From: Lutimonas zeaxanthinifaciens
GTDB taxonomy: Bacteria > Bacteroidota > Bacteroidia > Flavobacteriales > Flavobacteriaceae
Length of the DNA: 64,000 nucleotides
Assembly: GCF_030503675.1 (NCBI RefSeq)
Contig: NZ_CP129964.1
Coordinates: 1,178,001-1,242,000, forward strand
Direction: 5' to 3'
Positions 1-61,691 of this stretch are shown in pieces. Positions within the stretch are counted from its first letter, which is position 1; every line of letters starts with the position of its first letter. The translations under genes were made by a program, and so were the position numbers. The notes beneath the pieces were generated by a model. It saw only the letters and a program-made list of their open reading frames with translations, had not been told where the DNA came from and ran no database searches.

Positions 1-12
1 ACCGTTGGCAAC
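1..12 (+). repeat. S0: right end of an attC-like site
   Basis: The window opens inside a site. GTTGGCAAC at 4-12 is an R'-type outer box. It is the exact reverse complement of GTTGCCAAC at 365-373, after the first gene, so the two mark the ends of one cassette. Confidence 0.6.
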
Positions 13-24
13 AATTAAAACCAA

Positions 25-360
25 ATGAATAGTAAGAATAAAATCATCAGAACCTGGAAAGGATGGACTTCATTAGAAAACGCACCGATTTATGAAAATA
101 TGCTCATAAACGAGGTATTTCCTGAAGTGAAAAGGAAAGGTGTTGAAGGCTTGGAGAAAGTCAGTATTTCGACAATGGAAAATAATGATGAGATGGAGTT
201 TTTTCTTGTACTTCAATTTGACTCATTGGATTCTGTTAAAATGTTTGCAGGCGAAAACTTTGAGCAAGCATACATTCCAGATAATGCAAAACGTGTTTTG
301 TCCAGATATGATGAAACTGCTCAACATTTTACACTGAAAGAAGAATTAATATTAAAATAA
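25..360 (+). CDS. Antibiotic biosynthesis monooxygenase (ABM)-like small protein
   Basis: A 111-residue cytoplasmic protein with no signal peptide. It has the alpha-beta pattern of the dimeric ferredoxin-like ABM/Dabb fold. It opens with IIRTWKGWTS and has a central FFLVLQFDSLDSVKMFAG strand-helix unit, followed by a RVLSRYDETAQHF ending typical of this group. Family members are small heme or quinone-related monooxygenases or stress proteins, and the substrate cannot be told from sequence. It is the only gene between S0 and S1, so it forms a complete one-gene cassette. The start is the ATG 13 bases after the left outer box, leaving a very short leader. Confidence 0.7.
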   Translation: MNSKNKIIRTWKGWTSLENAPIYENMLINEVFPEVKRKGVEGLEKVSISTMENNDEMEFFLVLQFDSLDSVKMFAGENFEQAYIPDNAKRVLSRYDETAQHFTLKEELILK

Positions 361-364
361 AACT

Positions 365-499
365 GTTGCCAACAATGGCTATAAGTAATTGCTCGTTCTC
401 GCTTACTTCTGAAAATCCACGAGGATTTTCAGTTTGGTGCGTACTTGCAAAGTTGAGTGCTAACCCACGCAACTACTCATAGCCGAGACCGTTGGCAAC
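365..499 (+). repeat. S1: attC-like site, long form
   Basis: GTTGCCAAC (365-373) pairs with GTTGGCAAC (491-499). Inside these, AATGGCTATAAG faces CTCATAGC, and the tip carries a perfect hairpin GAAAATCC-acga-GGATTTTC near 410-431. The 135 bp length and nested, asymmetric arms match integron attC architecture. S5 and S18 share most of this interior. Confidence 0.7.
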
Positions 500-537
500 A
501 ATCAAAAAGATAATAATAACCTATTGAAAAATATAGT

Positions 538-2364
538 ATGAAAATGAGACAAATAACTCTACTAATTCTATCTCTGGCATTTTTAATGCTTGGATGTTTT
601 CAAGAAAATAAGAAAATAAAAGATGTAGACATAACAGCCGCTGACATACTTGGAAATCCTGAGTATTTGGCATTTTCGTACGGAGGATATAGAGAAAACA
701 CAAGGGCGGTCGTGCCCACAATTAAGGAGTTGAAAGATGATATGAAAATATTATCTGCAATGGGAATCAAATTAATAAGGACATACAACACTCAACAATT
801 TGGACATACGGCTAATCTCTTGCAGGCGATTAAACAATTGAAAGACGAAGATCCAAGTTTTGAAATGTATGTGATGTTGGGTACCTGGATAGAATGTGAA
901 GGTGCATGGTCTGCATCTGCCAATCATAATGCCGGAAATGTAGAAAATAATACTGCAGAGATAGAAGCTGCAGTAAAAATGGCCCAAACATACCCCGATA
1001 TAGTGAAAATCATTGCCGTAGGAAATGAGGCGATGGTACAATGGGCAATCAACTACTTTGTCTATCCAAATGTCATTCTCAAATGGGTGGATTACCTCAA
1101 AGAATTGCGAAAAAAAGGTGAAATCCCAACTGGTATCTGGATTACGAGTTCTGATAACTATGAATCTTGGGGTGGAGGAGCAAAAAGTTATCAGACAGAC
1201 GAGTTAGTAGCCTTGATAAAAGCAGTCGATTTTATATCACTCCACACCTATCCCTTTCATGATTCACATTACAATCCAACATTTTGGGGTGTGCCTGAAG
1301 AAGAGGAAGACCTACCAAAACTGAAACAAATTGAGGCTTCAATGCTTAGAGCCAAGAATTATGCTATTTCTCAATATCAAAGTGCTGTTGATTATATGAA
1401 AAGTCTTGGGATTGATAAGCCTATTCACATTGGTGAAACAGGATGGGCAACTATTGCAAGCTCCTCTTATGGAGTCACTGGTTCTAAGGCAGCAGATGAA
1501 TACAAGGAGAAATTATATTATGAGCACATGAGGGATTGGACGAATGCTGCAGGTATGTCTTGTTTCTATTTTGAGGCTTTTGATGAACAATGGAAAGATC
1601 AAGGGAATGCCTTAGGATCAGAAAATCATTTTGGGTTGATCAACCTAAAAGGAGAGGCAAAATTCTCATTGTGGGAGATGGTAGACGAAGGTGTGTTTGA
1701 TGGATTGACCCGAAACGGTTTACCTATAACAAAAACCTATGCTGGAGATATAGGCAAACTAATGAAAGATGTTCTTGCCCCGCCTTTAGAGAGCGAGATG
1801 GGATTGCTTGAAATTACTACCGTTAACGAAAACCGAAAAATTGGTCAGCCTGTACATGAAAGTACTTATGTGGTGGTTCATGCTACCCTGATGCCGGAAG
1901 GGACAAATGACATATCTTATCCAAGTGGAAAACTGAAACTGAATGCATGGGAGGGCACCTGTGGTATTGAAATGTCAAAAGATGGAATTATAGAAGTAAA
2001 AACCGGAACTGGGGCATGGTGGGGTTGTGCAATCGAAATAGTTGGAGGAATTGGTGAAAATCTCTCTAATTATAAATCGGGAAAATTGAATTTTGAAATA
2101 AAAGGAAACACCGTCTCATCTTTCCAGATAGGTTTTCAAACAGGTTCATTTGCCCAGGGAAGTCAAACAAATAATAAGATTACTTTTAACCCTGAAGGCG
2201 ATTATTCAATGGCAAGTGAATGGAAATCGTATTCGATTCCTATCGCTGAAGTTGATGAGGGTGCAGATTTAAGTAATGTGACAGCACTTCTATTTTTGAG
2301 AGGCGACAAGGATTTTGATGGAAAAGACATCTATATAAAAAATATTTACTATACAAGAGAATGA
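538..2364 (+). CDS. Glycoside hydrolase family 17-like lipoprotein (putative beta-1,3-glucanase) with C-terminal carbohydrate-binding-like domain
   Basis: A 608-residue lipoprotein with a lipobox at LMLGC (Cys20). Residues about 35-410 form a TIM-barrel glycosidase. VGNEAM carries the likely acid/base Glu164, and HIGETGW carries the likely nucleophile Glu300, the clan GH-A pattern of GH17 enzymes. The last ~150 residues look beta-rich and contain a W-rich stretch, probably a carbohydrate-binding module. A role in cutting laminarin-like beta-glucans at the cell surface is inferred from the family. The gene is alone between S1 and S2. The start could also be the next Met two codons in. Confidence 0.75.
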   Translation: MKMRQITLLILSLAFLMLGCFQENKKIKDVDITAADILGNPEYLAFSYGGYRENTRAVVPTIKELKDDMKILSAMGIKLIRTYNTQQFGHTANLLQAIKQLKDEDPSFEMYVMLGTWIECEGAWSASANHNAGNVENNTAEIEAAVKMAQTYPDIVKIIAVGNEAMVQWAINYFVYPNVILKWVDYLKELRKKGEIPTGIWITSSDNYESWGGGAKSYQTDELVALIKAVDFISLHTYPFHDSHYNPTFWGVPEEEEDLPKLKQIEASMLRAKNYAISQYQSAVDYMKSLGIDKPIHIGETGWATIASSSYGVTGSKAADEYKEKLYYEHMRDWTNAAGMSCFYFEAFDEQWKDQGNALGSENHFGLINLKGEAKFSLWEMVDEGVFDGLTRNGLPITKTYAGDIGKLMKDVLAPPLESEMGLLEITTVNENRKIGQPVHESTYVVVHATLMPEGTNDISYPSGKLKLNAWEGTCGIEMSKDGIIEVKTGTGAWWGCAIEIVGGIGENLSNYKSGKLNFEIKGNTVSSFQIGFQTGSFAQGSQTNNKITFNPEGDYSMASEWKSYSIPIAEVDEGADLSNVTALLFLRGDKDFDGKDIYIKNIYYTRE

Positions 2365-2752: not shown

Positions 2753-3244
2753 ATGAAAAAGAATAACAGCTTATCAATTACAATTACATTTTTATTGTTA
2801 TTTCTTATATCATGTTCAGAAAAGAAATCAGATCAAATGGATCTTGTCAACGAGATATTCCCTGAGGCACAAAATGAATTGAGAGAAGTCATTAATTCAA
2901 TAGTCAGGGATAATGAAACAGCTAATTTAGAGGGGCTCAAAGCATCACATTTGTTAAGTGATAAATTCACAAAATTTGGTCCCCGAAGTTTTGAAAGACA
3001 AGACGTAGAGAGTACAAATGAGTCTGAGTTAGCACATTTTGGTTCAATTTCAAGTTTTAAAATGGAAGTAAAAGATCTGAAGATTGATGTGTTCGGAGAT
3101 ATTGGTATAGCAACATATTACCCTCACTTTTCTCTTGAAAAGGATGGAGAGAAGATAACTGGAAGTGCTCGCCAAACACTTGTGTTCCTAAAGACGGATG
3201 AAGGATGGAGAATCATTCATGAGCACGGGACTAAAAAGTTTTAA
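2753..3244 (+). CDS. SnoaL/DUF4440-like (NTF2-fold) lipoprotein
   Basis: A 163-residue protein with a signal peptide and lipobox LISC (Cys21). The mature part has the NTF2-like fold order: N-terminal helices, a middle region with KMEVKDLKIDVFGDIGIATYY, and a final strand pair ending LVFLKTDEGWRIIHEHGT, the DUF4440 hallmark. The family contains small-molecule isomerases and binding proteins; no substrate can be assigned. It lies alone between S2 and S3. Confidence 0.7.
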   Translation: MKKNNSLSITITFLLLFLISCSEKKSDQMDLVNEIFPEAQNELREVINSIVRDNETANLEGLKASHLLSDKFTKFGPRSFERQDVESTNESELAHFGSISSFKMEVKDLKIDVFGDIGIATYYPHFSLEKDGEKITGSARQTLVFLKTDEGWRIIHEHGTKKF

Positions 3245-3262: not shown

Positions 3263-3395
3263 GCACTCAACAACACCTATATCACATGGCCTCGTTAGAG
3301 TCATTAAGAAAAATGAATAGTAAATTGAACATACAAGTAATCAACATAAATTAGAGTAGTGAACGGCCACGTGCCATAGCCGCAAAACGTTGTAA
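3263..3395 (+). repeat. S3: attC-like site, degenerate long form
   Basis: The left box is ACTCAAC (3265-3271), followed by a CTAT..ATGGC arm. The right side has GCCAC..GCCATAG and the box GTTGTAA (3389-3395). Arm pairing is imperfect. The left box matches 6 of 7 positions with the start of its cassette (GTTGTGT at 2492). The right box matches the end of the next cassette perfectly. Confidence 0.5.
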
Positions 3396-3414: not shown

Positions 3415-4125
3415 ATGAAAGAAAACTTTATTTTAAAAATTTATTCAATAACCTTAACATTGATTTTAGGGTTCATACTTGTGTCAGGTTTTAAATCAAG
3501 TAATTCAAACCAAAAATTTGACGAAATCACAGTTGAACGTATTAACATAGTCGAACCTGACGGCAAACTGAAAATGGTTATAAGCAATCAAGAGCGTCAA
3601 CATCCCGGGATGCATGATGGTAACGTGCTGGACTCTAGAGAAAGACCGCCGGGAATTTTATTTTTTAATGAGGAACAAGATGAAATAGGAGGGTTAAGTT
3701 TTCATGGGAATAAAGAAATAGGTGGCAACTCGCTTTTCCTTTCTTTTGATCAATACAAAAACGATCAAATTATGCACTTAAAGCAATCTTCTAATAAGAA
3801 CGGAGATAATCAATATGGCTTGCAACTTTGGGAAAGGGATAAAAAATTGACACCAGCTGTATTACAGAAAACCTTGGATTCTTTGGACAGGGCAGGATAT
3901 TACTATCAACAGAAAATGGATTATCTGAGAGAAATGAATGGAGGAAATCCTATAAATGAGCCAAGATTGTTTATTGGAAAAAAATATAATAGAGAGACAG
4001 GCTTATTTATTCAAGATAAATCGGGAGTTGACCGATTACGATTTTATATTGATTCTGATAACTCCCCTAAAATTGAAGTCTTGGATGAGAAAGGTGAGAT
4101 AATTACAAACATTTTGGATAAATAA
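3415..4125 (+). CDS. Conserved hypothetical membrane-anchored or secreted protein
   Basis: A 236-residue protein with an N-terminal hydrophobic segment (about residues 8-26), then a soluble domain rich in short beta strands. I do not recognise a named family. Recurrent features are ERINIVEPDGKLKMVIS near the start of the mature part, and repeated strand-turn units such as GLQLWERD and GLFIQDKSGVDRLRFYID that resemble one another, suggesting a repeat-built beta structure. It is a single-gene cassette between S3 and S4, whose outer boxes match perfectly (GTTGTAA / TTACAAC). Confidence 0.6.
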   Translation: MKENFILKIYSITLTLILGFILVSGFKSSNSNQKFDEITVERINIVEPDGKLKMVISNQERQHPGMHDGNVLDSRERPPGILFFNEEQDEIGGLSFHGNKEIGGNSLFLSFDQYKNDQIMHLKQSSNKNGDNQYGLQLWERDKKLTPAVLQKTLDSLDRAGYYYQQKMDYLREMNGGNPINEPRLFIGKKYNRETGLFIQDKSGVDRLRFYIDSDNSPKIEVLDEKGEIITNILDK

Positions 4126-4130
4126 ACTAT

Positions 4131-4183
4131 TTACAACAATGTATAAGCGGCATTAAAACGGCCGCTTATACCAACCGTTGTGC
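4131..4183 (+). repeat. S4: attC-like site, short form
   Basis: The clearest short site at 53 bp. Left box TTACAAC, spacer AAT, arm GTATAAGCGGC (4141-4151), 9-base loop ATTAAAACG, arm GCCGCTTATAC (4161-4171), asymmetric spacer CAACC, right box GTTGTGC. The 11 bp inner stem is perfect. No T-run follows, which argues against an intrinsic terminator. Confidence 0.7.
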
Positions 4184-4207: not shown

Positions 4208-4951
4208 ATGATTAAATTTTTTAGAAAAATTAGACAAAACTTACTTACTGAAGATAAAACTGGAAAATATTTTAAATATGCATTAGGAGAAATTATCCTA
4301 GTAGTTATTGGTATTCTTATTGCACTTCAAATAAATAATTGGAATGAATACAGGAAGGACATCAACAAGTCCAGAGCCATTCTGGGAGAGTTTAAAAAAG
4401 ATCTTGCCAGTGATACAACGGGCATTAACCGGGTTGTAAGACTTCTTGAGCGAAGAGTAGGCTATGAGACTTGGGCCCTGAACAAAGTCGTCTATGACAA
4501 GAGCCAGGCTGACAGCCTCAGAAAGGCTTTTTTTAGTCCGGTTCACCAGGAATTTATCAAGGACCGAACCTACAAGAAGCTGCAAGTTTCCCAAAACCCT
4601 AATCTCACTGGATTTCTCGATCTGCAAAATGACCTGACGACGTATTACACGGATACCAAGTTTCTTTTGGATTACGGCAATCAATTAGAAGAGGAGTTTC
4701 TGAAGCAATACAATGTAAACACCCTATTGAGAAAGGAATTGGAAATACAATTGGATCCGTTTCCCACGCTTTCTTCCGAAGACAAGCAGATCGAAACACT
4801 CATCAGCTATGCGCAAACGATTGAAGGGAGGAATTTCCTAAAAGAGAACTATTCCCGCAGGAGCAGAATGATAAGATATTTCAACAAGGTTAAAGAGGAA
4901 GCGCGGGAGTTGATTCAGAAAATAAATACTCACCTAGCAACGGAAAAATAA
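4208..4951 (+). CDS. DUF6090 family membrane-anchored protein
   Basis: A 247-residue protein with the hallmark N-terminus of DUF6090: a basic stretch KFFRKIRQ, then a single membrane helix (about residues 25-42, GEIILVVIGILIALQINNW). A mostly helical, coiled-coil-like soluble domain follows. The function of the family is unknown; it is common in Flavobacteriia. It is a single-gene cassette between S4 and S5, preceded by the mini-ORF leader. From about position 4340 the gene body seems less AT-rich than its neighbours. A paralogue lies at 7385. Confidence 0.8.
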   Translation: MIKFFRKIRQNLLTEDKTGKYFKYALGEIILVVIGILIALQINNWNEYRKDINKSRAILGEFKKDLASDTTGINRVVRLLERRVGYETWALNKVVYDKSQADSLRKAFFSPVHQEFIKDRTYKKLQVSQNPNLTGFLDLQNDLTTYYTDTKFLLDYGNQLEEEFLKQYNVNTLLRKELEIQLDPFPTLSSEDKQIETLISYAQTIEGRNFLKENYSRRSRMIRYFNKVKEEARELIQKINTHLATEK

Positions 4952-4957: not shown

Positions 4958-5090
4958 CGCAACAATGGCTATAAGTAATTGCTTATTCTCGCCTACTTTG
5001 GAAATTTCTGCGGAATTTCTAACTTGGTGTGTACTTGCAAAGTTAAGTGCTAAACCACGCGACTACTCATAGCGGAGATCATTGTTTGCA
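4958..5090 (+). repeat. S5: attC-like site, long form
   Basis: Left box GCGCAAC, arm AATGGCTATAAGTAATTGC, tip hairpin GAAATT..AATTTC, arm ACTACTCATAGC, right box GTTTGCA. The interior is closely similar to S1, but the tip hairpin differs in sequence while still pairing, which suggests conservation of structure. Confidence 0.65.
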
Positions 5091-5114: not shown

Positions 5115-5741
5115 ATGGAATTTGATAAAAACTTATTGTCTTTTTTAAAACCAAGGCTGTTAGATGAATTGATTAAGAAATCTACACTTCAGGAATTTTC
5201 AAAAGGCACTGAAATTTTAAGAGAAGAACAGTATGTGAAAGTACTACCTATAGTACTTAACGGACTTGTGAAAGTTTATTCTAGATTTGATGAAAAAGAA
5301 TTATTACTTTATTACATAGAACCAGCTCAAAGCTGCGTAATGACTTTTTATGCTGCTTTAAAGAATACACCAAGTAAGGTTTTTGCAACAACTGAAGAAG
5401 ATTCTAAAATTCTTCTAATTCCAGTTCAGTATATACCAAATTGGCTAAAGGAGTACCCTGGTTTTAACGAATTATTTTATAACCAATTCAATCTACGTTA
5501 TTCTGAACTTTTAGACACAATTCGGCATTTAATGTTGGACAAAATGGATAAGAGACTGTACGACCATCTTAAAAAGAAATCAGAATTAACAAAAAGTAAT
5601 TCGATTAAAATGAGTCATATCCAAATAGCAAATGAATTAGGAACTGCGCGTGAAGTAATTACTAGGGTTCTGAAAAAACTTGAAACTGATAATAAAGTTG
5701 TTCAAAATGCAGGAGAAATAAAAATTAATAGCGAGTGGTGA
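5115..5741 (+). CDS. Crp/Fnr family transcriptional regulator
   Basis: A 208-residue protein with an N-terminal cyclic-nucleotide-binding-type beta-barrel (about 10-120), a dimer helix (125-150), and a C-terminal winged helix with the recognition helix in HIQIANELGTAREVITRVLKKL. No Fnr-type cysteine cluster is seen, so an oxygen-sensing Fe-S role is unlikely. It is followed by a DUF2892 gene, a common partner of Crp/Fnr genes in Bacteroidota, and probably controls it. Confidence 0.8.
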   Translation: MEFDKNLLSFLKPRLLDELIKKSTLQEFSKGTEILREEQYVKVLPIVLNGLVKVYSRFDEKELLLYYIEPAQSCVMTFYAALKNTPSKVFATTEEDSKILLIPVQYIPNWLKEYPGFNELFYNQFNLRYSELLDTIRHLMLDKMDKRLYDHLKKKSELTKSNSIKMSHIQIANELGTAREVITRVLKKLETDNKVVQNAGEIKINSEW

Positions 5742-5773
5742 TCATAGTCACTGCATACCTTTATGGAACCATT

Positions 5774-5781
5774 TACCTTTG
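5774..5781 (+). promoter_or_regulatory. Possible Bacteroidota -7 promoter element (TACCTTTG)
   Basis: TACCTTTG fits the TAnnTTTG consensus and sits 36 bases before the DUF2892 start. No clean -33 TTTG at the usual spacing was found, so support is partial. Confidence 0.35.
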
Positions 5782-5816
5782 TAAAGCAATAATGCATAAT
5801 TAATTTATTTCAAAAG

Positions 5817-6026
5817 ATGAAAAAAAACATGGGCAGTGCAGATAGAATTATTCGAATAATAATCGCTGCAATAGTTGGAATTCTTTATTTTACAGATACC
5901 ATTTCGGGAACTTTAGGTCTAATTCTTTTAATCCTAGCAGGAATATTTGTTTTAACTAGTTTAATTAGTTTTTGTCCTCTTTATGCACCATTTGGAATTA
6001 GCACCTGTGCTTTAAAAGAAAAATAA
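5817..6026 (+). CDS. DUF2892 family inner-membrane protein
   Basis: A 69-residue protein with two membrane helices (about 10-27 and 30-50) and a short tail with paired cysteines (SFCPLYAPFGISTC). The opening KNMGSADRIIRI is the DUF2892 signature, as in the membrane part of YgaP. Relatives are often linked to rhodanese or sulfide metabolism. It lies downstream of the Crp/Fnr gene and 5 bases before the next gene. Confidence 0.75.
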   Translation: MKKNMGSADRIIRIIIAAIVGILYFTDTISGTLGLILLILAGIFVLTSLISFCPLYAPFGISTCALKEK

Positions 6027-6031
6027 TTGTT

Positions 6032-6502
6032 ATGGAAAAAAGATTTTATTTCAGTTTTTTAGTGATAATTTGTTTCAATTTAATATTTTCTGCTTGCTCA
6101 AATAGCGATGACGATGGAGACGTAAATGATAATAGTGAACAAATAACTCAAGTTGAAAACACAGTTGAATCAGGAACTTGGCGAATAACTAATTTTATAG
6201 ATTCTGGAGAAAATGAGACATCAGATTTTACAGGATATAATTTCTCGTTTAATTCTGATGGTTCACTTGTTGCTACAAATGGAACTGATACTTTAACTGG
6301 TACGTGGTCAGTTACCGACGATAGCAGCGGTAGTGACGACGATATTGATTTCAATATTTTCTTCCCTGTTCCGGATACTAATGATTTTGAAGATTTAAAC
6401 GATGATTGGGATATTATATCATATACGTCTACTAGAATTGAACTTATTGACATAAGTGGAGGAAATGGAGGTACCGATAATCTGACATTTGAAAAAAATT
6501 AA
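6032..6502 (+). CDS. Lipocalin-like lipoprotein
   Basis: A 156-residue protein with lipobox FSAC (Cys22), then an Asp/Ser-rich linker (SNSDDDGDVNDNS). A beta-rich domain follows with a GTWRITNF opening, FNSDGSLVATNG and LTGTWSVTD strands, and a closing RIELIDISGG, the layout of lipocalin-like domains in Bacteroidota lipoproteins. No ligand can be assigned. It is translated 5 bases after the DUF2892 gene, so it is probably the third gene of that operon. Confidence 0.6.
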   Translation: MEKRFYFSFLVIICFNLIFSACSNSDDDGDVNDNSEQITQVENTVESGTWRITNFIDSGENETSDFTGYNFSFNSDGSLVATNGTDTLTGTWSVTDDSSGSDDDIDFNIFFPVPDTNDFEDLNDDWDIISYTSTRIELIDISGGNGGTDNLTFEKN

Positions 6503-6506: not shown

Positions 6507-6636
6507 GCACACAACAATGTATATAAGCAATAGCGGTTTGAGTTCTAACTTTGACCGTTTTTTTTTATTTAAGTATCTTTTCAATGGAAAAGTAGGTGCT
6601 TAAAATCCGCTACTGCTCATACCCGAACCGTTGGGG
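6507..6636 (+). repeat. S6: attC-like site, long form (variant B)
   Basis: Left box ACACAAC, then ATGTATATAAGCAATAGCGG. The right half is CCGCTACTGCTCATACCCGAACC ending in GTTGGGG. S17 shares this interior (AATAGCGGTTTGAG...ACTGCTTATACCC). Confidence 0.6.
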
Positions 6637-6685: not shown

Positions 6686-6934
6686 ATGAAGAATACATCA
6701 ATATCACTCGGAAATTATTTCGACGAATTTGTTCAAACTCAAGTCTCAACAGGACGATACAAAAATGTTAGTGAAGTAATTCGTGCTGGGCTTCGGCTTT
6801 TAGAAAATGAAGAAAGCAAAGTGATTGCCATAAGAAATGCCATACAAGAAGGATTGAATAGTCCGCTAGTAGAGGATTTTGACTTTGAAGAAAATTTAAA
6901 AAAGCTAAAAGCAGCAAAGAGACAAAATGGCTAA
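6686..6934 (+). CDS. ParD-like ribbon-helix-helix antitoxin
   Basis: An 82-residue protein. Residues 3-45 form the ParD-type ribbon-helix-helix DNA-binding unit (TSISLGNYFDEFVQTQV then YKNVSEVIRAGLRLLE). The tail (FDFEENLKKLKAAKR) is the toxin-binding part. It overlaps the toxin gene by 8 bases, the usual translational coupling. A palindromic operator lies just upstream. The module occupies one cassette (S6-S7), as toxin-antitoxin modules often do in large cassette arrays. Confidence 0.85.
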   Translation: MKNTSISLGNYFDEFVQTQVSTGRYKNVSEVIRAGLRLLENEESKVIAIRNAIQEGLNSPLVEDFDFEENLKKLKAAKRQNG

Positions 6935-7226
6935 AGTTATACTGAGACAAAAAGCCATTGATGATTTGAATGACATTTGGGACTATACTTTTGAAACTTG
7001 GTCTGCAAAGCACGCGGACAAATATTATGCAACGATTAAACTTGTTTGTAATGGAATTGGAAAAAATCCAGATATTGGAAAAGAGTATCAAGGAATAAGT
7101 CAAAATCTACTAGGACTTAAATCCGGTAGACATATCATTTTTTACCAATTACTTTCAGAAGATAAAATTGAAGTTATCAGAATCCTACATGAACGCATGG
7201 ACTTGAAAAATAGAATAGTTGAATAA
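6927..7226 (+). CDS. ParE/RelE-superfamily toxin
   Basis: A 99-residue protein with the ParE pattern: an N-terminal strand VILRQKAIDDLNDIWDYT, helices around SAKHADKYYATI, and C-terminal strands with LKSGRHIIFYQLL and VIRILHERMDLKN. ParE toxins poison DNA gyrase, while other members cleave mRNA; the target here is not known. It is partnered with the antitoxin by an 8-base overlap. No site separates them, so they move as a unit. Confidence 0.85.
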   Translation: MAKVILRQKAIDDLNDIWDYTFETWSAKHADKYYATIKLVCNGIGKNPDIGKEYQGISQNLLGLKSGRHIIFYQLLSEDKIEVIRILHERMDLKNRIVE

Positions 7227-7233: not shown

Positions 7234-7359
7234 ACTCAACAACGTATACAGCTCATACCTTTGATTACACTGAATTTTATGCATCTTGAAATCTACATAA
7301 ATTCCGTGTAAGAAGCTCGCAATGAAGAAAGGTATGAGCTATATACATAACCGTTAGCC
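7234..7359 (+). repeat. S7: attC-like site, long form
   Basis: Left box ACTCAAC, arm GTATACAGCTCATACC; right arm GGTATGAGCTATATAC, box GTTAGCC. The inner arms pair over GCTCATACC / GGTATGAGC. The left box pairs 8 of 10 bases plus one G-U with the GTTGGGGGTA that opens the toxin-antitoxin cassette. Confidence 0.65.
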
Positions 7360-7384: not shown

Positions 7385-8143
7385 ATGATAAAATTCTTTA
7401 GAAAAATTAGACAAAAACTACTATCTGAAAATAAATTCAGTAAATATTTACTTTATGCTGTTGGCGAAATCGTTCTTGTTGTAATTGGAATATTAATTGC
7501 GTTGCAAATCAATAATCAAAATATTTATAAGCAAGAAAGAACAATTGAAAAGACTTATCTTATAGCTCTGAAAGAAGAATTTGAGATCAACATAAATAAA
7601 TTGGACGAGACTATTGACTTAAACAACAATCTCATTGATAGTGCTCAAAGATTGATTGAAGTATTTCAAAATAATGTTATTGATACCATCTCGGAAAGAA
7701 CTTTAGTCAATTACTTATACCAAACACTTTCAAATGAAGTAAACTACTCACCAAGTAAAGGAGTATTGACAGAAATTATAAGTTCTGGGAATTTAAGACT
7801 TATTAAAAATCAAAAATTAAAACAAAAACTAGCCTCTTTCGAAAGCGCTATAGACAGAATAAGTCATCAAGAGAATGAAATAAATATTCCTCGACTCGAA
7901 ATCATGGAACATTTTAGGAATCAAGCGAATTACAAGCGATATTTAGAAGAACTCGGGAGGGAAACAAATTGGGCATCCATATTTGAAGATAGAAGTAATA
8001 AGGAACTTTTTAAGTCATTGCATTTTTTCAATAGTTTGTACTTTTTTCAAGCTACATCAATGGCGGCTAATAGGGTTTGTTATGTTCCTATTAAAGAAGA
8101 CATGGTAAAAACTTTAAAATTGATTAATTCCGAAATTGATTAA
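7385..8143 (+). CDS. DUF6090 family membrane-anchored protein (second copy)
   Basis: A 252-residue protein with the same N-terminal module as the gene at 4208 (KFFRKIRQ, then one membrane helix, GEIVLVVIGILIALQINNQ). The C-terminal domain is divergent and mostly helical, with IEKTYLIALKEEFEINI and an LTEIISSGNLRLIKN segment common in this family. Function unknown. It is a single-gene cassette between S7 and S8. The leader CTTCATTATGACCAACCAA is shared with the first copy, and its small frame overlaps this start codon in another phase. Confidence 0.8.
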   Translation: MIKFFRKIRQKLLSENKFSKYLLYAVGEIVLVVIGILIALQINNQNIYKQERTIEKTYLIALKEEFEININKLDETIDLNNNLIDSAQRLIEVFQNNVIDTISERTLVNYLYQTLSNEVNYSPSKGVLTEIISSGNLRLIKNQKLKQKLASFESAIDRISHQENEINIPRLEIMEHFRNQANYKRYLEELGRETNWASIFEDRSNKELFKSLHFFNSLYFFQATSMAANRVCYVPIKEDMVKTLKLINSEID

Positions 8144-8148: not shown

Positions 8149-8202
8149 AAGCGAACAATGCATATAAGCCATTAAAAAGGCTCATATAATAGCCGGTTAG
8201 CT
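8149..8202 (+). repeat. S8: attC-like site, short form
   Basis: Left box AGCGAAC, arm CATATAAGCC, loop ATTAAAAA, arm GGCTCATATA, right box GTTAGCT. Same short subfamily as S4, S9 and S20. The following gap to 8442 is AT-rich and I see nothing else in it. Confidence 0.6.
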
Positions 8203-13808: not shown

Positions 13809-15527
13809 ATGAGCAAAAAATCAATCACACTAAAAATCATGCTATTGTTAACAGTAATGGTTTTTAGTCAGACAACACAAACAATTAAAGTTATTGTACC
13901 GAACAAAACTGACGACGTTTACATAACGGGAAATCAGGAAGCATTAGGAAACTGGAATCCCAAACAGGTAATAATGGAAAAAATCTCAGACTACGAAAGA
14001 AGTATTTCTGTAGATCTTAGCTATCCAGCCGAATTTAAATTCACAAAAGGCGATTGGAATTCTGAAGGCATCATTAAAGCGCTTAATGACAATCCTAATC
14101 AGAAAATTGAATCGACAGAGTCTAAAAACATTTTCACCATTAAAGGGTGGTCAAATGACATAGACAGTGAAGTTTTAGGTTTAGATTATCAAGTTGAATT
14201 TTTAGCTTCTCAATATGTTTTGGGTGGTGGTAGACAGATTAAAATTGCACTACCCAACAATTACGATCCAAAGAAAAAATACCCGGTTTTTTACATCACC
14301 GATGGTGAATGGAGAAACTTTGGCGTAGCTAAGAACTATTTAGAAAGCATGGCAGGTGAACCATACAATATTGTTCCAGAAACCATCTTGGTAGGAATAG
14401 TTCATGGAAGTAGTAATGGAGAATCGAATAGAAACAAAGATTTAGATGTCTATTATGAAGAGACTGGACAACAGTTTAAAAATTTCTTATTTCAAGAGTT
14501 GGTGCCATACATCAACAAAACGTACAGTACCTCTGGATTTAATGTAATGATCGGGCATTCTAACGGAGCTGAATACAATCACTACTTATTCTTAGAGGAA
14601 GACAATCCGTTTGGAGGTTTTATATCCATATCCACCAATTTCTTTGGGAAACGAAAAAACAAAGATGTCGATACCAAAATGGGAGGTGCTATGAAAAACT
14701 ATAACGGAGACACCTTCTACTATTTTGTTGCCAACGCTAAATACGATTCACCAGACAGAATACAAGCTGGCGATGATTATGAAAAAATGTACGATACCAA
14801 TCCGAATCCAAAATTTCAATTTCAGAAGAAGTTTTATGAAAAGGATCACAACTCTGTTGTACCACCTGCACTGTTTGATGCCATATCTTTTGTATATAAA
14901 GACTACAAACAAATGGAAAAATACAACACCTTTTATGAGTTAAGAGACAATTATGCAAAAGACATGAAGACTTTGTATGGTTTAGATATAGAATACACAT
15001 TTAGTGATGTAGAAGGTCTTTTTGGTAAAATCTTCGAAACTAAAGATAAGAAACAACTGGATGCATTTTATGCCTTTATAGAAGAACACAAGCTATTTCG
15101 AAATGGAGTAACTCAAGAACAAGGGGGTATGGATGCCATGAACCAAGGGAACCTTTATTACCATATTGGAGCTTATAAAACTGGTACTATAAAATTCACA
15201 GAAGCCCTTGAGGAATTGAATAAAACCGTAGAGCCCATGGTCTATTTTGGAAACTTTGATTTTATAGTGGATTGCTTCAAAAAAATAGAAGACCACAAAA
15301 CATTAATGGAAATCTTAATCAAAAGCCGAGACTTTGCCTCTACTAATAAGGTGTATGATGATGGTAATAAAAACATTTTGTTAAAACTTAATTATTTGAT
15401 TGCCACAGTATCGGCCGAGCACAACATTGCCAAAAAAGAAGGCAAAAAAGCGAAGGAATATTGTATCGACAACTACTTCGAAAACAAGCTTTTTGATTTG
15501 GATGAAATGAATCAATTGAGCATCTAA
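13809..15527 (+). CDS. Secreted esterase with N-terminal CBM20 starch-binding-like domain
   Basis: About 572 residues. I chose the ATG at 13809 over the upstream TTG (13788) because it opens a clean signal peptide (ends VFSQ). Mature residues ~20-110 form a CBM20 domain (KVIVPNKTDDVYITGNQ, LGNWNP, EFKFTKGDW). An alpha/beta-hydrolase esterase of the Fes/IroE-like type follows, with nucleophile motif GHSNGAEY and His near KDHNSVVP. A C-terminal TPR-like helical tail completes the protein. The next gene has the same two domains in reverse order. Confidence 0.75.
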   Translation: MSKKSITLKIMLLLTVMVFSQTTQTIKVIVPNKTDDVYITGNQEALGNWNPKQVIMEKISDYERSISVDLSYPAEFKFTKGDWNSEGIIKALNDNPNQKIESTESKNIFTIKGWSNDIDSEVLGLDYQVEFLASQYVLGGGRQIKIALPNNYDPKKKYPVFYITDGEWRNFGVAKNYLESMAGEPYNIVPETILVGIVHGSSNGESNRNKDLDVYYEETGQQFKNFLFQELVPYINKTYSTSGFNVMIGHSNGAEYNHYLFLEEDNPFGGFISISTNFFGKRKNKDVDTKMGGAMKNYNGDTFYYFVANAKYDSPDRIQAGDDYEKMYDTNPNPKFQFQKKFYEKDHNSVVPPALFDAISFVYKDYKQMEKYNTFYELRDNYAKDMKTLYGLDIEYTFSDVEGLFGKIFETKDKKQLDAFYAFIEEHKLFRNGVTQEQGGMDAMNQGNLYYHIGAYKTGTIKFTEALEELNKTVEPMVYFGNFDFIVDCFKKIEDHKTLMEILIKSRDFASTNKVYDDGNKNILLKLNYLIATVSAEHNIAKKEGKKAKEYCIDNYFENKLFDLDEMNQLSI

Positions 15528-15554: not shown

Positions 15555-16715
15555 ATGAGAAATCTATTTATAATCGCAATATGCTTCCTGAGTATGACTA
15601 TGTCTTCACAGGAAGTTGAGAAAATCAAAGTATTTTCCAAAGAGTTATCTCAAACTAGAGAAATTAGTATCTACAAACCTCTGGGATATGAAGAATACGT
15701 AAATCGTTATTATGATGTGTTCTATGTTTTTGACGCACAGGCTTCAGCATTGCCAAAATACGTCAGCGCTATTTCAGAAATCTTGCAAGGTGACAGTCAT
15801 AAAGGTGCCATTGTAGTAGGCATATCGGCTACTTACATTAAAAACCCAGAATATGCCAGAAATCACGATTTTCTTCCTGAAGATTTTGATGTTACCGGGA
15901 AAGGTTCTTATGGTAATCAAAACCAATTTTTTGCCTATGTAAAAAATGAAGTGATTCCTTATGTAGAAGACAACTATCGGATTAGAAGACATAGAACAGC
16001 TATTGGACATTCTTTGGGAGGTTCATTTGTAATACATACTTTACTAAATAATCCAACACTTTTTGACAATTATGTAGCCGTTTCCCCAAACCTTTCTTAT
16101 AAAGAAGAACGCTTGGTGAAAGGCTTAGAAAATTTTGATTTTAACCAACTAAAGGGCACCAAGTTTATCTATTTGAGTCATTCTGAAGAAAATGATGAAC
16201 AAAAGTGGAAAGGTTGGAAATCAGCTAATGATAGGGCCTATAAAGTATTGAAAGCAATTCCCAAAAATTCAAATGTTCAGGCTTTAGTAGAGCAATTTCC
16301 GAATGAAGATCATTTATCGAACTTTGCCACAAGTGTGAACTCAGCCATGAGAACATACTTCAAAACAGTTCTTCCACAACAGCATGATGAACTAGGTGAA
16401 GAAAGTTATTCAATTACCATAAGAGCCAAAGTGCCTGATGAAAATGATGAATTATACATTACAGGAAATCAGGAAAACATAGGAAATTGGAATCCTGGGT
16501 TACTAAAAATGAAAAAGGTATCTGCTTTCGAAAGAGAACTTAAACTAAGCGTAAAAGATATCACTGAATTTAAGTTTACTCGAGGAAGTTGGGATTCCGA
16601 TGCCTGGGTAAAATCGGCAAACGGGTTTTCTAATTTTAATAGTGTTATCAGGCCAAAAGAAGGACAAACCTATGCTTTTGAAATTGAAACCTATAGTGAT
16701 CGAATGAATAATTAA
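15555..16715 (+). CDS. Secreted esterase with C-terminal CBM20 domain
   Basis: A 386-residue protein with a signal peptide (ends MSSQE). An esterase domain occupies ~20-270 with nucleophile motif GHSLGGSF and a late NEDHLSN segment for the catalytic His. A CBM20 domain fills ~285-385 (SITIRAKVPDENDELYITGNQ, IGNWNP, EFKFTRGSWDSD). It starts 27 bases after the previous gene. The two CBM20 domains resemble each other more than generic CBM20 modules do (YITGNQE.. GNWNP, EFKFT+G.W), pointing to recent domain shuffling. Confidence 0.75.
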   Translation: MRNLFIIAICFLSMTMSSQEVEKIKVFSKELSQTREISIYKPLGYEEYVNRYYDVFYVFDAQASALPKYVSAISEILQGDSHKGAIVVGISATYIKNPEYARNHDFLPEDFDVTGKGSYGNQNQFFAYVKNEVIPYVEDNYRIRRHRTAIGHSLGGSFVIHTLLNNPTLFDNYVAVSPNLSYKEERLVKGLENFDFNQLKGTKFIYLSHSEENDEQKWKGWKSANDRAYKVLKAIPKNSNVQALVEQFPNEDHLSNFATSVNSAMRTYFKTVLPQQHDELGEESYSITIRAKVPDENDELYITGNQENIGNWNPGLLKMKKVSAFERELKLSVKDITEFKFTRGSWDSDAWVKSANGFSNFNSVIRPKEGQTYAFEIETYSDRMNN

Positions 16716-20117: not shown

Positions 20118-20177
20118 CGACAACAATGTGTATAATGCTTACCTTGCACGATATGCACCATTCATACATCGTTAGGC
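20116..20177 (+). repeat. S11: attC-like site, short form
   Basis: Left box CGACAAC (overlapping the upstream stop codon), arm AATGTGTATAATG, right arm CATACATC, right box GTTAGGC. The last is the exact textbook integron R' core (GTTRRRY). The boxes do not match each other (3 of 7) but each matches its own cassette. Confidence 0.65.
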
Positions 20178-20242: not shown

Positions 20243-20524
20243 ATGATTCAATCCTTTGGTTCAAAAGAAACCGAACAAATATGGAATGGAATGCGGGTAA
20301 AAAAAATTCCACTGGAAATTCAGTCAGTTGGTAGGAGGAAATTAAGAATGCTTCATAACTCACAAGATGTTAAGGACCTAAGAATTCCTCCTTCAAATAG
20401 ACTCGAAAAATTGTCAGGAAATTTAAAAGATTTTTACAGTATACGAATTAATAAACAGTGGAGAATAATTTTTACTTGGGATAATGGCCATGCTAATGAA
20501 GTGAAAATAACTGATTATCATTAA
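20243..20524 (+). CDS. higB: HigB-like toxin (RelE/ParE superfamily)
   Basis: A 93-residue protein with the HigB pattern: MIQSFGSKETEQIWNG opening, RKLRMLHNSQDVKDLRIPPSNRLEKL core, and closing YSIRINKQWRIIFTW with the conserved basic and aromatic residues. HigB toxins cleave mRNA on the ribosome. The gene order toxin-then-antitoxin is characteristic of HigBA. The module fills the cassette S11-S12, whose outer boxes are perfect complements (GTTAGGCAAC / GTTGCCTAAC). Confidence 0.9.
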   Translation: MIQSFGSKETEQIWNGMRVKKIPLEIQSVGRRKLRMLHNSQDVKDLRIPPSNRLEKLSGNLKDFYSIRINKQWRIIFTWDNGHANEVKITDYH

Positions 20525-20535
20525 ATGAAAGAATT

Positions 20536-20838
20536 ATGAAAAAATTATCAAATATACATCCAGGGGAAGTTTTATTACATGAGTTTCTTGAACCATTGGA
20601 AATATCGGCATATCGCCTTTCTAAAGATTTATTAATTCCACAGACTAGAATTTCTCAAATTATTAAGGGGAATAGACGAGTGACAGCAGATACGGCATTA
20701 AGATTGAGTAAGTATTTTGGGAATTCAGCTAAATTTTGGCTGGGAATACAAGATGACTATGACATAGAGGAAGAAAAGCATTCAAAAGAAGCTGAGCTCA
20801 ATGAAATCAATCATTTTGAAAATAACAACGTTGCCTAA
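20536..20838 (+). CDS. higA: HigA-like XRE antitoxin
   Basis: A 100-residue protein. Residues ~8-75 form the HigA-type helix-turn-helix (IHPGEVLLHEFLEPLEISAYRLSKDLLIPQTRISQIIKG, then TADTALRLSKYF and FWLGIQDDYD). It starts 11 bases after the toxin stop and ends within the left box of S12. It neutralises the toxin and likely represses the operon through the upstream palindrome. Confidence 0.9.
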   Translation: MKKLSNIHPGEVLLHEFLEPLEISAYRLSKDLLIPQTRISQIIKGNRRVTADTALRLSKYFGNSAKFWLGIQDDYDIEEEKHSKEAELNEINHFENNNVA

Positions 20839-22150: not shown

Positions 22151-22275
22151 GGTTAACCACGTTTATAAGTAATGCGGGTTTAAGTGTTAAAAAGAAAAAT
22201 AAAATATAAACAAAGGTAAGTGCAAAACCTAAAGGTTCGTAATTAAAAATCAACGACTGCTCATAACCAACACAT
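22151..22275 (+). repeat. S13: degenerate attC-like site, long form
   Basis: Left box GGTTAAC, arm CACGTTTATAAGTAATGCGGGTTTAAG. The right part has CGACTGCTCATAACCAAC, which fits the right arm of variant B sites, but no clear GTT box follows. Confidence 0.4.
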
Positions 22276-22313
22276 TCTAATTAATTAAACCAAAGAATCA
22301 ATAGACTGCTGAT

Positions 22314-22775: not shown

Positions 22776-22843
22776 ATTACAACAATGTGTATCGTACATA
22801 GAACCTGTCGGGATGTTATGACACCATGCACAATCCGTTATAC
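22776..22843 (+). repeat. S14: attC-like site preceding the G+C-rich gene
   Basis: Left box TTACAAC, arm TGTGTAT facing ATGCACA (7 bp with one wobble), right box GTTATAC. It is 68 bp long. The downstream gene has a base composition unlike everything else in the window. Confidence 0.55.
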
Positions 22844-32343: not shown

Positions 32344-32898
32344 ATGGCAGTTAAGAATCAAGTTTTAGACATGACACCGCTTGGAATGATTTTTACTGTA
32401 GTGAAAGGTAAAGTAGATACAAACGGAAAGTCTCTAGACCTTAAATGGGAATTATTACCAAAGTGTAATATGAAAGATCCGCTGTATCATGTTCACCCTG
32501 AAGCCATTGAAACGTATCATATACTTGAAGGAGAAATGGAATTCTTTATCAAGGATAAGTGGGTAAAAGCGAAGAAAGGAGATAAACTAAAAGTAGATAT
32601 TGGGGTGAAACATGCATTCCGAAATCCTACTGATCAAATTGTGAAAGTCTATAATACTCATGAGCCTGCTTTGGACATGGAAGACTATTTTGAGGATGTC
32701 TGTAGAGTAGCTGAGCTGGCTAAAAATCCTAAGACAAGCAAAGTGAGTATGAAGAATATTAAGACTTTATTGCTTTTTGGTAAACTCATGAGTAATTACA
32801 GAAGAGAAATTATAGCTGTAAATCCACCCGATATTCTTGTTAGAACTTTAGGGGTTTTAGCGAATCTAATAGGAACAGCATATAAAAAAAGCAGCTAA
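32344..32898 (+). CDS. Cupin-domain protein
   Basis: About 184 residues from the ATG at 32344; a TTG extension upstream would read into S19 and is unlikely. The cupin motif 1 region is HVHPEAIETYHILEGEMEFFI and motif 2 is VKHAFRNPTDQIVKVYNTHEP, giving two or three His and a Glu for a metal site. A C-terminal helical tail of ~60 residues follows. Function unknown; substrate probably a small molecule. Between S19 and S20. Confidence 0.75.
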   Translation: MAVKNQVLDMTPLGMIFTVVKGKVDTNGKSLDLKWELLPKCNMKDPLYHVHPEAIETYHILEGEMEFFIKDKWVKAKKGDKLKVDIGVKHAFRNPTDQIVKVYNTHEPALDMEDYFEDVCRVAELAKNPKTSKVSMKNIKTLLLFGKLMSNYRREIIAVNPPDILVRTLGVLANLIGTAYKKSS

Positions 32899-32946
32899 CA
32901 ATGTATAAGCCGTATTAAAACGATCCCCCTATACTTACCGTTAGAG
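32892..32946 (+). repeat. S20: attC-like site, short form
   Basis: AGCTAAC, then AATGTATAAGCCG, loop TATTAAAACG, right arm CCCCTATAC and box GTTAGAG (32940-32946). Same short subfamily as S4 and S8; inner arm pairing is imperfect. Confidence 0.5.
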
Positions 32947-34073: not shown

Positions 34074-34207
34074 GTTGCCAACAACACGTATAATTAATTC
34101 CCGGTTACTGGCAACTTACGAACATTCCTTTGGTACATCCTATCTGTGATTTATTTGCTAAATTAGGTCCTTAACCGAGTAACTGCTCAAACACAGACCT
34201 TTGGGCT
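34074..34207 (+). repeat. S21: attC-like site, long form, right box eroded
   Basis: Left box TGCCAAC with AACACGTATAATTAATTCCCGGTTACT. The right side has CCGAGTAACTGCTC, then ACCTTTGGGCTTCAT where GTT(A/G)GGC would be expected. The last clear site of the main array. Confidence 0.5.
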
Positions 34208-60670: not shown

Positions 60671-60697
60671 GATAAAATTCGGTGACATGCACAAATC

Positions 60698-60705
60698 GTT
60701 AGGCC
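60698..60705 (+). repeat. S24: cassette-start box GTTAGGCC
   Basis: GTTAGGC at 60698-60704 is the exact integron R' core. It pairs perfectly over 8 bases with GGCCTAAC at 61629-61636 after the CPBP gene. No clear left half is visible. Confidence 0.55.
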
Positions 60706-60762
60706 TTTATGTAACAAGAAAGTCCGTAAATCGTCATCAATAAAACCAAACCGGAATTTAAA

Positions 60763-61617
60763 ATGCAAAATACTTTATCAGATAATAGAGAAACCTGGAA
60801 TACAATCTTTGTTTTTTTAGCTATTGTTACTGTTTTGAGTTCTCTATTTCATTATGCAATCGTTAATTTATATCCTTCAAGAATTTACATCGGAGGCCTG
60901 ATGTGGTGTCCTGCCATAGCTGCAATAATTACGTTGAAACTGAAAAAAAGACCTATTTCTTCGCTACCTTGGAATTGGGGAAATTGGAAGTATATTCGAC
61001 GTTCATATTTTATTCCTGCTCTATATGGATTAATCACTTATATACTTATCTGGATTTTAGGATTTGGAAGTTTAGCAGATAAGGAAGTCATTACAGACTG
61101 GGGGAAAGAACTTGGTTTAATAGGGATAGGAACTTTAAATCCAGCCTGGATAGTTATAATAGCGATAATTTTATCAGGAACTGTTGAAGTGATAAGGTCG
61201 TCGGCAACAACTTTAGGTGAAGAAATAGGGTGGCGTGGTTTTTTTATTTTCGAATTAAGAAAGGTTCTTTCATTTACAGGGGTCTCATTTTTTAGCGGAA
61301 TTATCTGGGCAACCTGGCACTGGCCGGTAATTGTATATTATGGAGAAAATGTAATCTTAGAATTAGGAACTTTTTATGTTGTGATTATTGCCATGTCATT
61401 TATGATGACCTATTACACATTTAAATCCAAAAGCCTCTGGCCCGCTGTAATTTTTCATGCAGTAAGCAATGTCTATATTCAAAAAATCTTGCCAGAGTTA
61501 ACCGTTAAAAACGAAGGAACCGAACATTGGCTTGGTGAATACGGAATTATGTTTGCCATTGTTACCTGTGTTTTTGGAATTTACTTTTGGAGAAAAGCAA
61601 TTAAGGAAAAATTGTAA
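60763..61617 (+). CDS. CPBP family intramembrane metalloprotease (long form)
   Basis: A 284-residue protein with about eight membrane helices. Motif 1 is GEEIGWRGFFIFELRK, then WATWHWPVIVYYG and VIFHAVSNVY. It is bounded by matching cassette-start and cassette-end boxes (S24 and S25). Confidence 0.85.
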   Translation: MQNTLSDNRETWNTIFVFLAIVTVLSSLFHYAIVNLYPSRIYIGGLMWCPAIAAIITLKLKKRPISSLPWNWGNWKYIRRSYFIPALYGLITYILIWILGFGSLADKEVITDWGKELGLIGIGTLNPAWIVIIAIILSGTVEVIRSSATTLGEEIGWRGFFIFELRKVLSFTGVSFFSGIIWATWHWPVIVYYGENVILELGTFYVVIIAMSFMMTYYTFKSKSLWPAVIFHAVSNVYIQKILPELTVKNEGTEHWLGEYGIMFAIVTCVFGIYFWRKAIKEKL

Positions 61618-61629
61618 ACAAAGAACACG

Positions 61630-61691
61630 GCCTAACTAAGTATCTCATGAAGTGAACCTTATTTCACCCGAATGAATTGCCAACATTAGGC
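61630..61691 (+). repeat. S25: attC-like site
   Basis: Left box GCCTAAC (61630-61636) and right box ATTAGGC (61685-61691) are 6 of 7 complementary. Between them are AGTGAACC-TTATTTCAC and TGAATTGCCAAC. The interior does not follow the S1/S4 families. Confidence 0.5.

Follow-up and report, generated by a model that had tools for sequence, protein, structure and literature searches.

Features of the locus

The window, a stretch of 64,000 nucleotides from Lutimonas zeaxanthinifaciens (contig NZ_CP129964.1, positions 1,178,001 to 1,242,000), opens at the right end of an attC-like hairpin site, S0, which spans positions -116 to 6 (score 51.0; covariance-model match at G000:1177884-1178006) and contributes to the window only its positions 1-6, with the right box GTTGGCAAC starting at 4. 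From there, genes and sites alternate on the forward strand, which also carries every other feature listed below for the window. An open reading frame (ORF) of 111 aa (25-360, no Pfam match at 0.001) is followed by S1 (371-493, bounded by AAC and GTT; score 51.8, model E = 9.9e-18), a 608-aa ORF with a CBM30 domain and a GH17 match below cut-off (538-2364) by S2 (2373-2494; score 53.6, E = 0.0014), and a SnoaL-like ORF (2753-3244) by S3 (3269-3391; E = 2.4e-4). A 236-aa ORF (3415-4125, no Pfam match at 0.001) precedes the short site S4 (4135-4179; score 51.7), and a DUF6090 ORF (4208-4951) precedes S5 (4961-5083; E = 2.5e-13), in which the right core reads ATT instead of GTT. Both S3 and S5 escape strict scoring, and the boxes of S3, like those of S8, were re-read by script. 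The next interval (5115-6502) encodes a Crp-like regulator (5115-5741) with another ORF behind it (6032-6502), and it ends at S6 (6513-6632; score 52.2, E = 5.8e-13). A ParD/ParE-type toxin-antitoxin cassette (6686-7226; PF03693, PF05016), S7 (7238-7355; score 52.4, E = 2.1e-5), another DUF6090 ORF (7385-8143) and the short site S8 (8154-8198; score 34.5) complete this part of the array.

Further into the window the sites are sparser. Weaker ones lie at 20122-20173 (score 33.8), 22155-22276 (E = 4.7e-4), 22781-22839 (score 33.5) and 29551-29670 (score 22.8, E = 3.4e-6), and a HigB-like toxin gene with an HTH partner (20243-20838; PF05015, PF01381) sits directly behind a site. These are followed by a site at 31879-31998 (score 42.9, E = 5.2e-8), a short one at 32897-32942 (score 34.8) and a weak one at 34080-34202 (score 26.4, E = 9.9e-5), the last found in the window. 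Past 32,942 the finder returned no site in the window at a score of at least 32, and the last covariance-model match ends at 34,202. The preliminary description had extended the array from 1 to 61,691; sites bear this out as far as 34,202, and the remainder to 61,691 is without site-structure support. No part of the window matched an Rfam family at gathering scores. A gene for a tyrosine recombinase of ~390 aa lies upstream, in the same orientation as the array, and is interrupted in this genome by one in-frame stop; the genome also has a separate XerD-type gene.

Outer boxes pair across genes

It had been noticed from the sequence that the variable bases of the outer boxes are complementary across each gene, from the right box of one site to the left box of the next, and less so within a site. 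With boxes defined by script for S0-S8, 25 of 32 positions of the four-base boxes matched across genes (8 intervals) versus 11 of 28 within sites (S1-S7), and 15 of 100,000 shuffles equalled or exceeded the across-gene count. Over seven bases the counts were 41 of 56 and 20 of 49, respectively, with 19 of 100,000 shuffles as high.

We then scanned 172 kb, the window plus 108 kb of flanks, with a blind finder whose input was the AAC/GTT cores, the inner bases and the inner stem only, the outer boxes being left out. Sixteen sites reached a score of at least 32, a threshold chosen after the top control scores were known (31.8 on the opposite strand and 30.6 on the reversed sequence). Because its weights were taken from hand-read site ends of the window's own array (11 left, 10 right), the finder is independent only in other genomes. 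Among the blind sites separated by gaps of less than 2.5 kb, 37 of 48 positions matched across genes (12 intervals) versus 21 of 56 within sites (2 of 20,000 shuffles). The five intervals upstream of the window, outside the view of the preliminary description, gave 20 of 20 across and 8 of 24 within, although, the intervals being few, 315 of 20,000 shuffles also reach 20. Taken alone, the seven intervals between strictly scored sites within the window are weak (17 of 28 across versus 15 of 36 within; 1443 of 20,000 shuffles).

A wider scan of 67 related loci with an inner-base-only finder gave 293 sites. Here 551 of 584 outer-box positions matched across genes (146 intervals of at most 1 kb) and 440 of 1172 within sites, compared with a maximum of 262 across-gene matches in 2000 shuffles; these counts cover related sequences and not independent events. 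Intervals that do not pair exist (for example, 0 of 7 at L046 8074-9269), and we read them as missed or lost sites. Across-gene pairing thus prevails over both within-site and shuffled pairing in the scripted comparison, over the 172 kb as well as the 67 loci, and the initial observation is confirmed: the outer boxes go with the cassette rather than with the junction. Membership in a REP or MITE family, as a repeat independent of the flanking gene, was considered for the sites and rejected on the grounds that the outer boxes follow the gene.

Cassettes and the structure of their sites

Copies of one cassette found at different places share a unit that runs from GTT to GTT and includes the downstream (3') hairpin. 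These units keep their exact bounds beside different neighbors, some copies lying directly at the attI-like motif described below, and the cassettes therefore appear, from such comparisons, to move as exact units. In the copies at L050, L049 and L047, the base 5' of GTT depends on the partner upstream, being A next to attI and C where an array site precedes, whereas the base 3' of GTT tracks the cassette, and exchange would therefore fall inside GTT. The crossover had been placed between the G and the TT; its position inside the triplet agrees with the copies, which resolve it to GTT and not to that single step. Cassette excision, the reading originally proposed, offers the best fit to the box pairing and to the GTT-to-GTT copies with their 3' hairpins. 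In three large arrays, the longest ORF is of at least 60 aa and on the array strand in 77 of 79 cassettes.

The ends of a unit carry complementary arms consisting of AAC/GTT, seven base pairs, a C.A mismatch that hardly varies and three further pairs; such arms, at opposite ends of a unit, can come together only in a circular cassette. The sites are of similar length (most commonly 123-127 nt) and covary as hairpins, with changes on both sides at 13 of 14 pairs. By folding energy the bottom strand is the more stable in all 167 sites folded, and wobbles of the inner stem (292 sites) number 578 on the bottom strand versus 27 on the top, those of the outer arms 18 versus 1. The sites are therefore predicted to act as bottom-strand hairpins. 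In integron attC sites, extrahelical bases are placed on the R''-L'' arm (PMC2727003). In contrast, an extrahelical base lies on the left arm in 6 of our 293 sites, on the right arm in 84 and on neither in 203, such that left-arm bases of the R''-L'' type are not a feature of these sites.

The recombinase

Residues R229, K254, H318, R321, H344 and Y353, which we take to be the catalytic residues, are invariant in 59 proteins of the recombinase family. The insert of 42-44 residues found in IntI, the I2 or patch III domain, is absent from the family, being missing in all 19 aligned members in which it was sought. The gap separating two aligned stretches measures 58 residues in IntI4 and 14 in the query from the family, and the spacing from KGxxxR to HxLRH is 63-65 in the family and in those wider rows that have both motifs (69 in L168) versus 106 in IntI rows L188 and L190 (row L186 was excluded for its false motif order). 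The NCBIfam integron integrase model TIGR02249, with a curated cut-off of 265 bits, scored 195-213 bits in five of five family proteins. Scores for NF040815 were 212-221 in five members against a cut-off of 220, which two exceed, and databases may label some members 'site-specific tyrosine recombinase/integron integrase'. Judged by the domain that normally defines an IntI, the recombinase does not count as one. Its best solved relative is XerA (5hxy, 1.1e-38), its catalytic half resembles IntI4 (1.5e-30), and phage records gave a single partial match at 1e-40.

The recombinase also has an extra N-terminal domain of ~100 residues, for which no firm match was obtained: HARP, matched in 5 of 59 members with 0.0032 at best, and DUF5710, matched in 10 of 59 with 0.0079 at best, are weak matches that we do not call significant. 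A profile search against solved structures returned five hits up to E = 5, the best being 7uek (0.018), with the HARP domain 4o66 among them at E = 1. Separately, the N-terminal piece matches two Chryseobacterium plasmids at 26-28% identity.

Linkage and distribution

Sites on the strand of the recombinase gene number 189 in 330 kb downstream of it and 2 in 733 kb upstream; on the opposite strand there are none downstream and one upstream. At least one site is present in 45 of the 46 loci with 2 kb or more of downstream DNA, the remaining locus having none. In an earlier, partly overlapping set, 16 of 20 recombinase loci had a site, and three of the four without one at the threshold are on short contigs. 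Behind the recombinase gene, an attI-like motif precedes the first cassette. Of 120 loci, 82 have the pattern RTAWAAC-N1-2-GTT within 260 nt of the recombinase stop, with at least five duplicate records among these 82, compared with an expectation of 0.009 per 300 nt. The arm that follows the motif agrees in full with the left arm of the first site (seven bases plus A) in 28 of 67 loci, and 18 of the 82 attI have a TAnnTTTG box 22 nt before GTT.

Three genomes (G023, G348 and G313) have neither a family member at 1e-60 nor a site at 0.001, and in G021 the sites lie more than 500 kb from its own family member. With the window's genome included, one or more sites at 1e-6 are present in 36 of the 149 genomes in a sample of its class, and a recombinase relative at 1e-10 in 39 of 149 genomes from its family. 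Model R1 undercounts some types of site, giving 2 in G078 and 5 in G118, where the weight-based finder gives 11 each in one 20-kb stretch.

Comparison with known systems

The arrays resemble IntI integrons and chromosomal superintegrons in their head-to-tail cassettes on one strand, AAC/GTT cores, boxes paired across the cassette, bottom-strand hairpins, attI-like head motif and toxin-antitoxin cassettes. They differ in an integrase that lacks the insert and has an N-terminal domain. The integrase and cassettes share one strand, whereas in class 1 integrons they are divergent. Moreover, the arms pair over seven bases and three more beyond AAC, unlike the heptanucleotide box of attC as described in PMC2727003. 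Four true-IntI loci showed no clear array when scanned for a generic AAC-stem-GTT pattern. IntI integrons have been reported in the same phylum (PMC8618304, PMC9024848, PMC2426708), in the accounts cited by detection via IntI, and Salinibacter ruber M1 is the complete integron named in Bacteroidetes proper in the IntegronFinder 2.0 report (PMC9024848). Archaeal integrons likewise have attC arrays, in some cases accompanied by an integrase and attI, but the IntI described in that report carry the patch III IntI-specific domain that the present family is without (PMC9668308). Compared with XerA and NF040815, to which it is close in best solved match and in score, the family adds the ~100-residue N-terminal stretch and the linkage to cassette arrays. 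Integration of CTX phage by XerCD also uses a folded single-stranded substrate and no I2 domain, but has, as outlined in PMC4792948, no recombinase of its own and no cassette array. A search of the literature, with preprints and most subscription journals outside its scope, found no paper on an insert-less recombinase/cassette system.

Interpretation of the array

We consider it very probable that a cassette platform resembling integrons, but served by a different tyrosine recombinase from IntI, is widespread in Bacteroidota, and that the window holds one of its arrays in a worn state. A cassette would consist of one or a few genes with a hairpin site at the 3' end, and its complementary ends would come together in the excised circle. 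Strand choice would depend on the bottom-strand G.T wobbles and an uneven 3/6-nt spacer rather than on left-arm extrahelical bases. Given the in-frame stop in the recombinase gene, the array in this genome is probably no longer active.

On balance we lean, somewhat narrowly, towards a second class of integron in Bacteroidota, characterized by folded single-stranded sites, the lack of both I2 insert and left-arm extrahelical bases, strand choice built on wobbles, and an N-terminal domain, with weak likeness to HARP or DUF5710, that may read the fold; it would have tens to more than 100 sites per genome and is also borne on a plasmid. The family could instead belong among the IntI integrons, as a lineage in which the integrase is without the insert or has lost it, and so be only a variant of a known family, which we regard as unlikely. 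The resemblance of the catalytic half to IntI4 and the inferred function, which is that of an integron, would suit such a branch, as would a subgroup of integron-like simple tyrosine recombinases in which the insert is not fully conserved, although the account of its insert-less members describes no cassette arrays beside them (PMC8138268). The insert is nevertheless absent from every aligned member, and only one of the 105 genomes with IntI above cut-off, among 395 sampled from the phylum, belongs to the window's class. In the trees, the 13 IntI rows form one long-branch clade (100/100) and the 28 family rows another (100/99), but the best free tree splits the family plus its wider relatives, which are not kept apart from IntI and Xer. 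A tree uniting the family with these relatives apart from IntI and Xer is not rejected (p-AU 0.13; 36 rows, one Xer), and the trees are compatible with either a separate or a shared origin of the family and IntI.

That the host XerC/XerD moves the cassettes, with the upstream recombinase a bystander, is very unlikely: the genome does have an XerD-type gene and the family is closest to XerA among solved structures, but the linkage and order of recombinase and sites, the attI-like motif behind the recombinase gene, and the three genomes that lack both family member and sites all point to the recombinase itself. Transposon-like units, moved by a transposase acting on terminal inverted repeats round each gene, with the spacers being something else, would account for the mutual inverted repeats at the ends of a unit; yet these repeats vary between units while remaining paired, a copied unit takes the downstream hairpin along, and the sites keep to one strand with a recombinase at the head, making this explanation extremely improbable. 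We give next to no credence to the idea that the sites are REP or MITE elements or terminator hairpins that take no part in movement. The sites are indeed intergenic hairpins of like length, but such elements predict neither across-gene pairing nor exact cassette copies nor a recombinase at the head, and the preliminary description had rightly found REPs and MITEs a poor fit, as the boxes vary from unit to unit yet stay paired, and as nearly every cassette of the three large arrays has its longest ORF, of at least 60 aa, on the array strand.

The I2 insert is said, in PMC4792948, to allow integron integrases to take sites with extrahelical bases, and to be unique to them. A cassette platform served by an insert-less recombinase makes this idea testable and provides a natural comparison for strand choice. 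It also suggests a second form of a known route of gene capture, and that the uptake of cassettes has gone unnoticed across a large part of a phylum. The arrays, which reach tens of cassettes, store genes that are mostly unnamed, and one of them sits on a plasmid with transfer genes.

Outer-box pairing in the window's array

The preliminary description had proposed that the four bases outside the AAC and GTT cores of the attC-like sites pair across each gene, right box of the preceding site with left box of the next, and not within a site. A scripted re-reading of S0-S8, the nine sites between the window start and 8154..8198, bore this out, with 25/32 positions paired across genes versus 11/28 within sites, and 15 of 100,000 shuffles equalled or exceeded the across-gene pairing. 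A blind finder, whose input is limited to the cores, the inner bases and the inner stem and which leaves the outer boxes unused, gave 16 sites scoring at least 32 in 172 kb of window plus flanks; of the two controls, the opposite strand peaked at 31.8 and the reversed sequence at 30.6. For blind-found sites less than 2.5 kb apart, the scripted comparison again agreed with the claim (37/48 across genes versus 21/56 within sites), and five intervals upstream of the window were paired across genes at 20/20 positions. The strict list for the window only gave 17/28, a value reached by 1443 of 20,000 shuffles and not strong alone. By eye, GTTAGGCC and later GGCCTAAC flank a gene at window 60690-61650 in the manner of across-gene boxes; no site structure was detected in that interval.

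Arrays behind a family of tyrosine recombinases

Approximately 5.5 kb before the window lies a tyrosine recombinase gene (L006, the upstream region, 1094-2491) interrupted by a single in-frame TAA. This gene is distinct from that of the cell's XerD, located elsewhere in the genome. Relatives of its N-terminal piece were found at 1e-10 in 39 of 149 genomes from its own family, its own genome counted. The family is presumably Flavobacteriaceae, since loci from two of its genomes duplicate named Lutibacter and Bizionia records. A scan of named genomes gave at least 579 relatives. The 80 loci kept mostly bear Flavobacteriaceae, or a genus of that family, in their titles, with a few from Cyclobacteriaceae, Marinilabiliaceae and Bacteroidales bins. 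In these 80 loci, 189 sites were found on the recombinase strand in 330 kb downstream of the gene and 2 in 733 kb upstream, while the opposite strand had none downstream and one upstream. Downstream DNA of 2 kb or more was available for 46 loci, and 45 of these had a site.

The 53 of these 80 loci with sites, plus 16 earlier loci and minus 2 sharing identical sites, made up a test set of 67 loci and 293 sites. Across genes, 551 of 584 positions were paired in the 146 intervals of at most 1 kb, with all four paired in 124 intervals, versus 440 of 1172 positions within sites, where all four were paired in 18 of 293; 2000 shuffles of the 146-interval set gave a mean of 221 and a maximum of 262. 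For the 202 intervals of up to 2.5 kb, 694/808 positions were paired across genes. Beyond AAC, 7 bases pair; the eighth position is almost always a C.A mismatch (in 133 of the 152 intervals where 5/7 or more are paired; the right-hand A is present in 292 of 293 sites), after which 3 further bases pair. Three large arrays had 168/192, 52/56 and 45/68 positions paired across genes. Of the 79 intervals in these arrays, 77 have a longest ORF of at least 60 aa on the array strand, and the other two have no ORF that long.

Arrays of this kind are also headed by wider relatives from elsewhere in the phylum, outside the family: a site of at least 32 lies on the recombinase strand in 8 of 11 regions, and of the other three, one shows a lone site scoring 28.4, while the remaining two are short (9 and 3 kb) and without a site. 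A recombinase relative, 34.7% identical to that of the Lacinutrix himadriensis locus L137, is also found on Pontibacter kalidii plasmid pls1, followed by small same-strand ORFs. The plasmid is typed MOBP, mobilizable, with tra genes present. Its sites are below the finder threshold (best 30.5) and were positioned by reading; with sites so placed, boxes match at 31/35 positions across genes versus 14/42 within sites. This array (L221 11665-18180, NZ_CP111080.1) adjoins conjugation genes, and an IS110 element lies within one cassette.

Site structure and cassettes as exact units

Site structure was counted in related sequences. The layout is a core AAC, 3 nt, a stem of at most 16 pairs and, on the opposite side, 6 (or 5) nt before GTT. 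In the inner stem of 292 sites, G.T pairs number 578 on the bottom strand versus 27 on the top, with two stem positions accounting for 368 of the 578; the outer arms have 18 versus 1, and 46 other mismatches. The bottom strand is more stable in 167/167 circle-form sites (mean DNA folding energies of -31.6 vs -27.0 kcal/mol). In 164/167 the arms fold more stably in the circle than at the junction, a figure that is partly built in because these sites were preselected for at least 5/7 paired. Changes on both sides were seen in 13 of 14 predicted pairs (31 sites), and a bulged base improves the stem in the right arm of 84/293 sites and the left arm of 6/293.

Between one GTT and the next, copies of the same cassette (gene or genes plus 3' hairpin site) at separate places match exactly or almost exactly, and they are unlike outside these limits. 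There are 3 copies in locus L050, 4 in L049 and 2 each in L047 and L058, and different species have copies in common (L093/L137, L114/L137 and, for its start, L050/L102); of the 118 matching stretches that were kept, 40 had an end no more than 20 nt from a core. In L050, L049 and L047 the first copy is directly behind the recombinase, after ATATAACRA. This attI-like motif, conserved before the first cassette, occurs in 82 of 120 loci, some counted twice, no more than 260 nt past the recombinase stop, against a chance expectation of 0.009 per 300 nt; a few of the 82 may be chance matches, for example those at 5 and 13 nt from the stop. In these 82 attI regions TTATCC is conserved about 50 nt upstream of the motif, before GTT, and 18 have TAnnTTTG, a promoter element of Bacteroidota, 22 nt before GTT, where it may act as a cassette promoter.

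Relationship to integrons

At the level of sequence, these comparisons establish exact units, paired arms, a bottom-strand-biased hairpin, and a recombinase with an attI-like motif at the head. A cassette would leave as a circle through exchange within GTT and insert at attI, with the bottom strand as the predicted substrate and strand choice provided by the wobbles and uneven spacer. Such a platform most likely works like an integron. It differs in that the IntI-specific domain was looked for in the recombinase family and not found, and in that left-arm extrahelical bases are nearly absent; for these two reasons it falls outside the integrons as usually defined. Five intact family members score 195-213 bits with the integron-integrase model (cut-off 265) and 212-221 bits with NF040815 (cut-off 220). 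The solved V. cholerae IntI4 has 58 residues where the query has 14, and the distance between two conserved motifs is 63-65 residues in those family rows that show both, 69 in one wider relative and 106 in a pair of IntI rows; another IntI row gave a false motif order. In the tree, the 28 family rows group as a clade (100/99), as do the 13 IntI rows (100/100, on a long branch), a topology compatible with either separate origins or a shared one. Among 395 phylum genomes, 105 had IntI above the cut-off, a single one of them belonging to the window's class. PMC8618304, PMC2426708 and PMC9024848 report IntI integrons from Bacteroidota. The N-terminal ~90 residues of the family (A5) have a WS-T---WY motif and weak likeness to HARP and DUF5710; this domain might bind folded DNA.

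State of the window's array and sites across genomes

The window's array looks old, as judged from site scores that drop with distance from the head and from the stop codon in the recombinase gene. Among its sites are a ParDE-type (window 6686-7226) and a HigB-type (20243-20838) toxin-antitoxin pair; such pairs are common in superintegrons. The stretch at 12.7-17.7 kb, which is without strong sites, may be a later insertion. Within its long genes is a diverged 80-nt direct repeat (70%; 13881-13960 and 16416-16495).

A genome-wide search with a covariance model built on the bottom strand gave 134, 103 and 94 sites in the three large-array genomes, among at most 150 candidates scored per genome, and only 2 and 5 in genomes G078 and G118, whose sites differ. 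Under stricter filters, 36 of 149 genomes drawn from the class had at least one match at 1e-6, many with only one or two. Neither sites nor, at 1e-60, a recombinase family member were found in G023, G348 and G313; G021 has both, far apart. In the window's own genome the model gave 14 sites, 13 of them within 40 kb behind the recombinase. A lone well-scoring site (G000:C1:1719634-1719753, E 3.4e-10) lies half a megabase from the array.
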